Below, in pieces: positions 40,807 through 45,626 of a DNA stretch of 52,836 nucleotides. The stretch spans positions 1-52,836 of the forward strand of contig CAIYZV010000255.1 of NCBI GenBank assembly GCA_903930765.1. Direction: 5' to 3'. Position numbers and translations under genes: made by a program. This DNA is from an uncultured Pirellula sp. GTDB lineage: Bacteria > Planctomycetota > Planctomycetia > Pirellulales > Pirellulaceae. The notes beneath the pieces are model-generated. The model did no database searches and was not told where the DNA came from. It was given only the letters and a program-made list of their open reading frames with translations. Positions within the stretch are counted from its first letter, which is position 1, and the number at the start of each line of letters is the position of its first letter.

Positions 40807-41358
40807 ATGCCTGAATCGCCATCTCCAATAACCGAACCACTGGCAATAACCGAACCACTGGCAAAAACCGAACCGCTGGCTTCGGTCTCTGTCTCCATGA
40901 CCCCTTTGGCTCGCTATGAAGAGTTCCTTCAGTCGCGAGGGCTTCGGAATACCAACCAGAAAAAGTATTTGCTCGAACAAGTCTTCAATCGGCATGAGCA
41001 CTTCGATGCCGATCAACTGATCGATCAACTTCCCTCCAAGGGTAGCCCGAATTACGTGTCCCGCCCCACCGTCTATCGCACCCTTCGTGAGTTCGTCGAC
41101 GCCGGGTTGCTTCACCGCTTCGAACTCGACGGCCGAAGCATGTATGAACTCAACTATGGATATCCCGAACACGACCATTTGTACTGTTCCAAGTGCCGGA
41201 AATTGATCGAGTTCACCTGCGAAGAGATCGTCAAAATCCGCGATGAAGTCGCTCGAACCCACCGGTTTCGAGTTCGCGACCACCGATTTATCATCCAAGG
41301 CGTTTGCGACGAGTGCGCTAAGAAACGATCTGTAGGCCGCCGGCAAGATCGCGTTTAA
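40807..41358 (+). CDS. Fur family transcriptional regulator (start may be 40897)
   Basis: RGLRNTNQKKYLLEQVFNRHEHFDADQLIDQLP...YVSRPTVYRTLREFVDAGLLHRFELDGRSMYEL...HDHLYCSKCRKLIEF...CDECAKK. Confidence 0.93.
   Translation: MPESPSPITEPLAITEPLAKTEPLASVSVSMTPLARYEEFLQSRGLRNTNQKKYLLEQVFNRHEHFDADQLIDQLPSKGSPNYVSRPTVYRTLREFVDAGLLHRFELDGRSMYELNYGYPEHDHLYCSKCRKLIEFTCEEIVKIRDEVARTHRFRVRDHRFIIQGVCDECAKKRSVGRRQDRV
40827..40880. repeat. 18-bp tandem repeat, 3 copies, at the fur-family gene 5' end
   Basis: AATAACCGAACCACTGGC x2 + AAAAACCGAACCGCTGGC; would encode (ITEPLA)n if the 40807 start is used. Confidence 0.95.
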
Positions 41359-41728: not shown

Positions 41729-43171
41729 ATGGCCCTACTGTTCATGACTAGCACCCGGCTTAAAAGTCGAAACTTGATCGGCCGAGGTATTGCGCTCGGC
41801 TTCATCGCATTCGTTATTTCGAGTGCCTTTGGTCCCAGTGCTGTTGTGCCGTGCAGTTATGGTCAAGGAGGTGCTGGTGGGGGCCAAGCGGGTATGCCTG
41901 CGTTCAATGAACCAACCTTCAAAGAGCGAATGTACGAAGCTGGCGGTCTGCCAGTTCGTGAGGTTCGCGAAGGGGCAGTCATCCTATCGGTCAAGGTCGA
42001 AGGCAACCAATCGGTCTCGGAAAACTTTATCTTGTCGCAAATGCAATCGCGCGAAGATCGCGCGTTTGACAAGGAGACTTTCAATCGCGACATCGCGGCC
42101 CTGTACCGAACCAATCTATTCCGCAAAATCGACTCGTACCCTACCGAAACCCCAGAAGGGGTCCATATTCGGCTGGTTGTTTCCGAACGACCGATCATCA
42201 AGTCGGTCGAATTTCTAGGGAACGAACGGGTCGATGAAGGCCCCCTCAAAAAGCACTCAGGGCTTCAAAAAGGTGACCCTCTCGATCCATTCTCCCTGAA
42301 CTCAGCCCGCGGACGGCTGATCGAATACTATCAAGACAAAGGGATGAACCAAGTCGACATCCAAATCATCAAGGGACTGAAACCAGGCGAGCGCGAGGTC
42401 CAATTCCTCATCAACGAAGGGCCTGTCGAACGGATCAACACCATCCGCATGATCGGAAACGTTGAGTTCAAGGAAGACCTTCTCAAACATCGCATCAAAA
42501 GTCGCGACTCCCGCATGGGGCTGACCTCATTCGCCGGCAACAAGTGCTCGGATGCCAAACTCGTCGATGACCGCGACGGTCTCCTGGGCTATTACCGGTC
42601 CCTGGGCTACTTTGACGCTCGTGTCGATTATCAAAAGGCCTACAACGAAGCTGGTGACTTCGTGGATGTTACCTTCGTGATTTCGGAAGGCAAACGCTAC
42701 TTCATCAATTCGGTTTCGATCATTGGGACCAAACGGTACCAACCGAGCGAGCTGATTCCTCACATGACGATGAAGTCTGACGCCGCCTTCCTGCAGATCA
42801 ACAAGCTGAAGGATGAAAAATTTCTTCGCGATCTGTTTGGCGCGCAAGGCCATATCTTCTGCGACGTCGAAGGTGAAGTCGTCTACCAACCGAACAACAA
42901 TCGAGTCGACATCGTCTACCACGTCCGTGAAGGTGACGTCTATCGAGCCAGCGACATTCGAGTCAACATCGACGGTGATCACACGCAGCGTCGAGTCGTC
43001 CTGCAGCCACTGCGAAATCTGCGACCCGGGCAAACCATCGATTCTCGCGAACTCGAAAACGGAGAACGCCGACTTCGTTATTCAACCATATTCAACACAG
43101 ACCCATCGCGCGGTGAATTGCCGAGCGTTTCGGTACAACCCCCTGAACGAATGGAAGACGATAGTTTCTGA
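41729..43171 (+). CDS. POTRA-domain protein (N-terminal half of a BamA/Omp85-like system)
   Basis: 480 aa; signal peptide; repeated POTRA blocks (ILSVKVEGNQSVSENFILSQMQSREDRAFDKETFNRDIAALYRTNLFRKIDSYPTETPEGVHIRLVVSERPIIKSVEFLGNERV...); no barrel. Confidence 0.9.
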   Translation: MALLFMTSTRLKSRNLIGRGIALGFIAFVISSAFGPSAVVPCSYGQGGAGGGQAGMPAFNEPTFKERMYEAGGLPVREVREGAVILSVKVEGNQSVSENFILSQMQSREDRAFDKETFNRDIAALYRTNLFRKIDSYPTETPEGVHIRLVVSERPIIKSVEFLGNERVDEGPLKKHSGLQKGDPLDPFSLNSARGRLIEYYQDKGMNQVDIQIIKGLKPGEREVQFLINEGPVERINTIRMIGNVEFKEDLLKHRIKSRDSRMGLTSFAGNKCSDAKLVDDRDGLLGYYRSLGYFDARVDYQKAYNEAGDFVDVTFVISEGKRYFINSVSIIGTKRYQPSELIPHMTMKSDAAFLQINKLKDEKFLRDLFGAQGHIFCDVEGEVVYQPNNNRVDIVYHVREGDVYRASDIRVNIDGDHTQRRVVLQPLRNLRPGQTIDSRELENGERRLRYSTIFNTDPSRGELPSVSVQPPERMEDDSF

Positions 43172-43251
43172 TCCTCGAATCGCGACCCCAAAAATCAGCC
43201 TGTTGGATCCATCAGACGTACTCGACAAACTGCCAAACCGAGCTTTTATCT

Positions 43252-44811
43252 ATGCAGCCACTTCATCCAACCATTTCGATTGCAATCGCAAAGCATGCAT
43301 CGATGCTTGGGCATAAACGATGTCTGGCAGCGCTTGCAGTATGCTCGATGGTGCTGATTCTGAATACTCGAATCGCTCACGGTCAATTCGGAGCGCCGGC
43401 ACCACCTCCTGTATCGGCAGCACCTCCCTACGGTTACGGCACCATTCCTTCCGCGGCAAACCCGCAACCCGGATACCCTGCGGTCAATCCTGCTCCCGCG
43501 GCCACCAACTTTGGACAACCGGTCGGCGCACCATCCACAACCGTCTATGGACCGGGCGTGCAACCGCCCGGCTACCCGGTTTCGCAACCGATGGCGGGGT
43601 ATCCTCAAGGCCCGGCATATCCACCATTGGTTCCTGGCCCGATGAATCAACCCGCGCCACCCTTGAATCAGCCATGGACCATCGATCCCAATATTGGCTT
43701 CATGAGCCCCCCACCCTTTGGCTATAACCCCAGGATCCGCGACGTACCGATCGATGTCACTGTCGCCGAAGGTCAAACCGGTCGGTTCTCCGTCGGTGGT
43801 GCGGTCAACAGCGATTTGGGTGTGACAGGAAATATCATTCTGGAAGAGCGTAACTTCGACATCTTCCGGCTCCCAGGTCGCCCGAGCGATATGTTCAATG
43901 GAGCCTTCCGTGGCGCTGGACAGAACTTTCGTTTGGAACTGGTTCCGGGAAACCAAGTCCAACGTTACACCGTCAACTGGACGGAACCGAGCCTCTTCGG
44001 CTACTCCCCGTTTAGCTTGTCCGTAGGTGGCTTTTACTTCACCCGTTTTTATAGTGACTGGTCGGAACAACGCTTGGGGGGGCGCGTCGCCTTGGGCTAC
44101 GACATCACACCCGACTTGTCCTTGTCCACGGAACTTCGAGGCGAGGATGTCAAGATCTTCAATCCTAGCACCAACGGGTCCGAAGAGCTAAATGCCGTCC
44201 TGGGTAGCAATGACTTGTACACGAGTCGATTCCGCCTGGCCCACAACACGCGCGACAGCCCGTTCATCCCCACCGAAGGCCATCTGCTGGAGTTGATCTA
44301 CGACCAAGTCTTTGGGGAATTCGATTTCCCGCGAGCGCAAATCAACTACAGCAAGTACTTCCTCGTTCGCGAACGAGCCGACGGCACCGGGCGTCATACT
44401 TTTACGACAGCGTTCCGAACAGGGTTTGCCGGTGACGACCAGCCGATCTTCGAAAACTTTTTTGCTGGGGGTTTTTCGACCTTCCGCGGCTTCCAATTCC
44501 GCGGTGCGAGCCCCGTACAAAATGGCGTGCAGGTCGGTGGTACGTTCCAATTCCTAGGAACGATGGAATACATGTTCCCGATCACCGCGGATGACATGCT
44601 CAGAATGGTTGCTTTCGTCGACTACGGTACGGTCGAACAAGACATCGAGATCAATTGGGATCAATTCCGCGTCGCGCCTGGTCTCGGTTTCCGCGTTGCT
44701 GTTCCAGCCCTCGGCCCGGCACCTCTCGCTTTCGACTTCGCCGTCCCAGTGGCTTACGCCGATACGGACACTCGACAGGTATTCTCATTCTCAGCAGGCT
44801 TGACGCGATAA
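43252..44811 (+). CDS. Omp85/BamA surface-antigen beta-barrel protein with Pro-rich N-terminus
   Basis: 519 aa; signal peptide CLAALAVCSMVLILNTRIAHG; Pro-rich linker; TGRFSVGGAVNSDLGVTGNIILEERNFDIF...FFAGGFSTFRGFQFRGASP...LAFDFAVPVA...FSFSAGL. Confidence 0.9.
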   Translation: MQPLHPTISIAIAKHASMLGHKRCLAALAVCSMVLILNTRIAHGQFGAPAPPPVSAAPPYGYGTIPSAANPQPGYPAVNPAPAATNFGQPVGAPSTTVYGPGVQPPGYPVSQPMAGYPQGPAYPPLVPGPMNQPAPPLNQPWTIDPNIGFMSPPPFGYNPRIRDVPIDVTVAEGQTGRFSVGGAVNSDLGVTGNIILEERNFDIFRLPGRPSDMFNGAFRGAGQNFRLELVPGNQVQRYTVNWTEPSLFGYSPFSLSVGGFYFTRFYSDWSEQRLGGRVALGYDITPDLSLSTELRGEDVKIFNPSTNGSEELNAVLGSNDLYTSRFRLAHNTRDSPFIPTEGHLLELIYDQVFGEFDFPRAQINYSKYFLVRERADGTGRHTFTTAFRTGFAGDDQPIFENFFAGGFSTFRGFQFRGASPVQNGVQVGGTFQFLGTMEYMFPITADDMLRMVAFVDYGTVEQDIEINWDQFRVAPGLGFRVAVPALGPAPLAFDFAVPVAYADTDTRQVFSFSAGLTR

Positions 44812-45626
44812 TGATTGCCTTCGATGTGGATCTTCCAGGCTATCACGGCCCACTCGATCTACTCCTCTACTTGATCCGCCGCGAGGAATTGGAGATCCAA
44901 AGTATTTCCCTCGCCAAGGTGACCAAGCAATACAGCCAGTTCATCGAAGTCCTCAGCGAACTCGATCTCGACAACATCAGCGAATTTGTCGACATCATCA
45001 GCCAACTGATCGAATGGAAGGCGGAACGGGTACTACCCACCGCTCCGGATGAATCCGACCCGCTTGCGCGAGAAGAAGACGCCCAGTCTCCGCACTTGAT
45101 CGAGCGTTTGATCCAATACAAGCGATTTCGAGACATCGCGAGCGTCCTCGACGAACAGAGCCGATTGTGGCAACTCCGGTATCCACGCCAATCCGTCGAA
45201 ATCCCGAAGCGCCGCGTACCTGCAGAAGAGCATCCTATCGCGAAAATCGAGATCTGGGATTTGGTCAGTGCTTTTGGTCGAATTCTCAAAGCCCGGCAGA
45301 CACCTCCCACCCAAGAAATTCGTTACGACGACACCCCGATCCATGTTCACATGCAGCGTATCCATGCTCGCGTTCAGGAATGCGAGCGGGTGGAACTACA
45401 GGATCTTTTCGCGCCAGGGATGCACAAAAGCGCTCTGGTAGCCATGTTCCTAGCGACGCTCGAGATGACTCGTTACCACGGCCTCATCGCTGTGCAATTC
45501 GATTGCGACGGTCCTCTTTGGCTCGAAAAAGGAGCCGGATTTCCAGCAGAGCTCGCGGTGCATCAAGTCGACTCGATGGATGCCAATGCCATCGCGAACT
45601 CCAACATGCCGGTACGGCCTCGTTAG
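44811..45626 (+). CDS. scpA: Segregation and condensation protein A
   Basis: ATG within TAATG overlap; MIAFDVDLPGYHGPLDLLLYLIRREELEIQSISLAKVTKQYSQFIEVLSELDLDNISEFVDIISQLIEWKAERVLP. Confidence 0.92.
   Translation: MIAFDVDLPGYHGPLDLLLYLIRREELEIQSISLAKVTKQYSQFIEVLSELDLDNISEFVDIISQLIEWKAERVLPTAPDESDPLAREEDAQSPHLIERLIQYKRFRDIASVLDEQSRLWQLRYPRQSVEIPKRRVPAEEHPIAKIEIWDLVSAFGRILKARQTPPTQEIRYDDTPIHVHMQRIHARVQECERVELQDLFAPGMHKSALVAMFLATLEMTRYHGLIAVQFDCDGPLWLEKGAGFPAELAVHQVDSMDANAIANSNMPVRPR

Follow-up and report, generated by a model that had tools for sequence, protein, structure and literature searches.

A BamA encoded by two adjacent genes in Pirellulaceae, divided within its fifth POTRA domain

Introduction

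BamA is regarded as a conserved single-chain core of outer-membrane biogenesis. Proteins of the BamA/YaeT family (TIGR03303) combine five POTRA domains (PF07244) with an Omp85 beta-barrel (PF01103). Here we describe a BamA locus in a 52,836-nucleotide stretch of DNA from an uncultured Pirellula sp. (contig CAIYZV010000255.1; this whole stretch is referred to as the window). It shares with BamA/YaeT the domain order, the RGF motif, an end-to-end fold match, the status of sole Omp85 and, in a relative's model, the 16-stranded barrel. It differs in occupying two genes, in having POTRA5 spread over two polypeptides, in its long disordered linker and in that each half scores below the TIGR03303 cut-off.

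Closer still are the single-chain planctomycete BamA proteins of other families of the order and class, whose barrel is about 50% identical and which carry an insert at the same position, usually with an RGQSPD motif. These are one chain with one signal peptide and a linker that lacks a lipobox signal, unlike the split pair. A lipidated Omp85 barrel, which we predict in most split genera for the barrel half, is known from TamL-type lipoproteins (NF052279). TamL, however, is a single-chain TamA relative, whereas here the lipobox sits on a BamA barrel half, and the barrel gene in the window, like the rest of its genus, has none. The noNterm Omp85 class likewise consists of barrel-only polypeptides, as described in a survey (PMC4104836), but in our case a neighbouring gene encodes the missing POTRA domains and the barrel half is not free of POTRA sequence, having kept a conserved POTRA5 beta3 strand.

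BamA has been listed for Pirellula, Blastopirellula and Rhodopirellula (Speth et al. 2012, PMC3422733), and a split BamA goes unmentioned in the searched passages of that paper, of the Omp85 survey (PMC4104836) and of a 2026 BAM review (PMC13067283). No description of one was found in the open-access literature, a scope outside which most subscription papers and preprints lie, and the two-gene layout is apparently undescribed so far. A preliminary description of this DNA had reasoned that the layout would be known, not new, if all relatives shared it. Every resolvable genus of the Pirellulaceae is indeed split, yet fused genes prevail in the order at large and in the rest of the class, and no publication was found.

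Results

Two adjacent genes jointly encode one BamA

The locus comprises the following features, all on the forward (+) strand, with coordinates counted in the window:

41729..43171, +, POTRA half of BamA, 480 aa: signal peptide, POTRA1-4 and beta1-alpha1-alpha2-beta2 of POTRA5 (Pfam, TIGR03303, AlphaFold2)
41729..41863, +, POTRA-half signal peptide, type-I-like, end approximate (..CSYG/Q), from sequence
41981..42934, +, POTRA1-4 (PF07244 matches; complete folds in the AlphaFold2 model): POTRA1 41981-42190, POTRA2 42191-42421, POTRA3 42431-42691, POTRA4 42698-42934
42935..43147, +, truncated POTRA5: beta1, two helices and beta2, without beta3 (weak PF07244 match, AlphaFold2)
43172..43251, +, intergenic gap of 80 bp with a change of frame (ORF coordinates)
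43252..44811, +, barrel half of BamA, 519 aa (Pfam, TIGR03303)
43252..43383, +, barrel-half signal peptide, type I; later start possible at 43303
43384..43737, +, Pro/Gly/Ala-rich disordered linker (sequence; homologous stretch with pLDDT below 50 in a relative's pair model)
43738..43785, +, POTRA5 beta3 running into barrel strand 1, RDVPIDVTVAEGQTGRF, supplied by the barrel half (TIGR03303 from 386 onward, conservation, pair model)
43786..44808, +, Omp85 beta-barrel with the loop 6 RGF motif, STFRGFQFRG (PF01103; 16 strands in a relative's model)

Pfam recognises four POTRA repeats in the upstream ORF (7e-40) and an Omp85 match at residues 219-518 of the downstream ORF (1e-45), and a weak fifth PF07244 match in the POTRA half covers profile positions 5-48 only. 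Coverage of the TIGR03303 model is complementary, positions 2-368 being matched by the POTRA half (208.6 bits) and 386-738 by the barrel half (138.8 bits), both under the curated cut-off of 297. The two proteins are thus jointly one BamA, cut in the beta2-beta3 loop of POTRA5 between beta2 (NTDPSRGELPSVSVQPP) and beta3 (RDVPIDVTVAEGQTGRF). This bears out the preliminary description, which had proposed a BamA/Omp85 split over these two ORFs, the first ending after the second strand of the last POTRA domain and the second resuming at its last strand behind a signal peptide and Pro-rich linker of its own. A small correction concerns the barrel-gene start, which may lie at ATG 43303 rather than ATG 43252, the signal peptide read from there (MLGHKRCLAALAVCSMVLILNTRIAHG/Q) being the more usual.

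Five N-terminal POTRA domains are present only when both proteins are taken together, four by Pfam and the fifth divided between the genes. The barrel matches PF01103, the relative's model shows 16 strands following beta3, and R250 G251 F252 of loop 6 is invariant (alignment A1). Instead of a single polypeptide there are two ORFs, which differ in frame and each carry a signal peptide; BamA identity holds for the pair and not for either protein alone. We found no second Omp85 or full-length BamA in the genome itself (5.74 Mb, 96% complete), a find that the preliminary description had named as a possible refutation. Since this is the only Omp85 found in the genome, we infer that the split BamA probably inserts outer-membrane proteins and is probably essential. 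A search of the same genome for BamD returned weak, ambiguous YfiO-like matches only.

The stop codon of the barrel gene overlaps the start of a scpA-like gene (TAATG, 44809-44813), a direct downstream neighbour found only in the window's genus and the sister genus g42. Upstream of the locus, a Fur-like ORF carries a short repeat (ITEPLAITEPLAKTEPLAS) in its N-terminus (40807-40900).

The two-gene layout is common to the Pirellulaceae

The draft assembly that contains the window has 527 contigs, and an assembly error, frameshift or pseudogene had to be considered. The nearest relative (G018, barrel half 97% identical) has the same 80-bp gap, and in 26/26 other genomes of the genus the open frame containing the barrel is too short for a full BamA. 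Together these exclude a sequencing error at 43100-43330, where the preliminary description had likewise seen no simple frameshift. The same survey gave a barrel frame under full-BamA length in all ten other sampled genera of the family, and the POTRA ORF lay just upstream on the same strand wherever the fetched DNA reached far enough. No barrel open frame exceeded 707 aa in a wider sample of 29 Pirellulaceae genomes. All 22 resolvable genera of the family are split, including Rhodopirellula, Blastopirellula and Stieleria, with differing gaps and frames. Of 80 named loci, 71 are split and six fused, and the other three are interrupted by the end of a contig. Blastopirellula marina DSM 3645, Rhodopirellula baltica, R. 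solitaria, Rubripirellula obstinata, Stieleria, Aporhodopirellula and chromosome CP036432 are all represented among the split loci.

Comparison with the nearest relative used for substitution rates (L150) gave dN/dS values of 0.05 for the POTRA half, 0.03 for the barrel and 0.28 for the signal peptide plus linker, which indicates strong purifying selection on both halves and argues against a pseudogene. An artefact is further contradicted by the occurrence of the layout throughout the genus, across the 22 genera and in genomes that are finished or consist of one contig (G005, G032, G036, CP036432), and we give this explanation next to no credence. One outlier within the phylum (G336; locus L118, contig C11) does resemble such an artefact: its open frames overlap, with a nonsense tail after POTRA5. 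We read it as probably a frameshift artefact and rejected it as a split. Split-looking cases at contig ends were left out (G081, G091, G173, G365, G239). In family f5, one genome that is 99% complete (G040) gave no match to the barrel query, and another (G058) holds two divergent split bamA loci (L056 and L057), which may represent two strains, contamination of that assembly being about 6%.

Linker first, fission later

Most other families of the order have a single-chain BamA of about 930-1500 aa, in which a Pro-rich linker occupies exactly the POTRA5 beta2-beta3 loop. The preliminary description had said as much of related planctomycete BamAs. The linker of these fused relatives measures 149-439 aa and mostly contains no signal peptide. 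Outside the order, 82 genomes of the class gave a match, 81 of them with a full-length frame and the remaining one at a contig end, and several families there have almost no linker at the loop (5-11 aa). Fused outgroups, some with so short a linker, and a long linker in fused members of the order imply that the linker came first and fission later, which supports the earlier proposal of fission inside a pre-existing disordered linker. Fused linkers have a high content of P, G, Q, S, N, A and T. Since they are almost free of Cys and mostly of low hydrophobicity, the barrel half most likely gained its signal peptide as a new element.

Splits also occur in families f3, f4, f5 and f9 and in a subclade of f17, the other genera of which are mostly fused. 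A tree built from the POTRA and barrel parts, with the linker excluded, requires five changes between the fused and split states, three of them forced by well supported branches. A single origin of all splits was ruled out: constraining them to one clade lowered the log-likelihood by 146.6 (p-AU 0.0004). A clade of f1, f3, f4 and f9 was not rejected (p 0.75), so the tree supports at least three changes in the order, and we do not claim six. A counted change alone cannot tell fission from re-fusion; with every outgroup fused, repeated fission is the simpler reading.

Signal peptides and a recurrent linker motif

The POTRA halves and the fused proteins mostly carry type I signals. By lipobox pattern, the barrel half starts with a lipoprotein-type signal in most other split genera, among them members of f1, f3, f4, f9 and f17 (LSGC, LTGC, LGGC, IAGC and similar; loci L045-L055, L058, L099, L103, L232, L234 and the named loci L165-L229). 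Under a strict pattern with a correctly placed ..GC box, 33/71 barrel halves and 4/68 POTRA halves match. Barrel-half signals are of type I in the window's genus, g36, g41 and f5.

These signals bear on whether cotranscribed genes could still yield one BamA chain by stop-codon readthrough or programmed frameshifting. Among the 71 split named loci whose POTRA ORF is complete, 17 have both ORFs in the same frame with only one stop between them. Elsewhere the relation of the genes is variable, from 4-bp overlaps to gaps of more than 200 bp, with ATGA overlaps in several families, and even inside the window's genus the spacing runs from -11 to 276 bp, depending on the start codons chosen. A single chain would moreover place the barrel half's own signal peptide, often with a lipobox, as a hydrophobic stretch inside a disordered linker, and the fused proteins mostly have no signal-type stretch there. 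Mainly because frame and spacing vary, we judge readthrough or frameshifting highly improbable.

The linkers also contain a motif, R[GA]Q[SQNT]P(D), with 65 matches compared with 0.5 in shuffles (loci L045-L058, L060-L078 and L080-L107). It usually lies 16-30 residues after beta2, and many fused proteins have a second copy later. Where the gene is split, the POTRA tail usually keeps the first copy, and a second copy, if there is one, lies in the linker of the barrel half; the motif is lost in the window's genus. Genome-wide, pattern matches fall mostly in spurious frames. The one other real family found is an unrelated planctomycete protein joining a thioredoxin to a trypsin-like protease, with R[GA]QSP[DE] in the inter-domain linker (loci L124, L133, L243-L245, L248, L255, L264, L265, L271 and L272). 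Nine of 30 of its homologues have the motif against 0.23 expected, two of the nine being the finds that prompted the search. It is possible, judging from these sequences, that RGQSPD is a shared periplasmic docking motif.

Structure models of POTRA5

AlphaFold2 folded the window's POTRA half alone (47 aligned sequences) into complete POTRA1-4, whereas POTRA5 consisted of two helices only, with no strand or sheet. The pair was modelled as a single chain in a same-genus relative (L154) whose halves lie in one frame, the TAG stop being read as Q. The alignment held 108 sequences, including six fused and 17 read-through rows, and the tethering may have helped. In this model POTRA5 comprises beta1 (400-411), helices at 417-424 and 435-447 and beta2 (462-465), and it is completed by beta3 from the barrel half (593-604), with a pLDDT of about 87-96 over the block. 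The new signal peptide and linker (472-584) fall below 50, and 16 barrel strands follow beta3. By Foldseek, the pair model aligns over both halves to E. coli BamA.

POTRA5 of BamA adjoins the periplasmic face of the barrel; the simplest mechanism would therefore be that the first strand of the barrel half completes POTRA5 of the soluble half. Strand complementation had been put forward in the preliminary description. Completion of the sheet holds in the tethered pair and not in the lone half, and binding in trans is what we infer from it. The reverse case is that POTRA5 never re-forms, leaving an Omp85 barrel without complete POTRA and a POTRA half that acts as a separate periplasmic chaperone or scaffold binding elsewhere. 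Precedents are found in PMC4104836, according to which a noNterm class without N-terminal extension exists and Sam50 is still functional without its POTRA. The beta3 segment, however, has an invariant TG and a near-invariant R across split and fused homologues and is under purifying selection in the split genes; beta1, the helices and beta2 of POTRA5 are retained as well, and the pair model completes the domain. On this evidence we consider a POTRA5 that stays open unlikely.

Discussion

We regard it as very likely that the two genes encode two subunits of one BamA, the halves rebuilding the five-POTRA protein non-covalently. An ancestral planctomycete BamA would have gained a long disordered insert in the POTRA5 beta2-beta3 loop, as the fused relatives show, and the gene would then have broken inside this insert in the ancestor of the Pirellulaceae and separately elsewhere in the order, in keeping with distribution and tree. 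The downstream part would have acquired its own start and signal peptide, so that the halves are presumably exported separately. Modelling and conservation suggest that the barrel half enters the outer membrane and that the strand at its N-terminus, on the periplasmic side, completes the soluble half's POTRA5.

A more far-reaching version is rather doubtful in our estimate: BamA as a separable two-subunit machine, its barrel lipid-anchored in most genera and its soluble POTRA arm docking by strand complementation, possibly exchangeable and quality-controlled, with RGQSPD as docking site for a common partner.

The split recurs in at least three lineages, at least two of which gained a lipoprotein-type signal, and this points to a functional cause more than to drift. 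That POTRA5 is broken in nature, stably and repeatedly, suggests that barrel and POTRA arm can do without a covalent link. It concerns widely studied genera such as Rhodopirellula and Blastopirellula, and a split BamA offers a ready-made system for asking how POTRA5 couples to the lateral gate.
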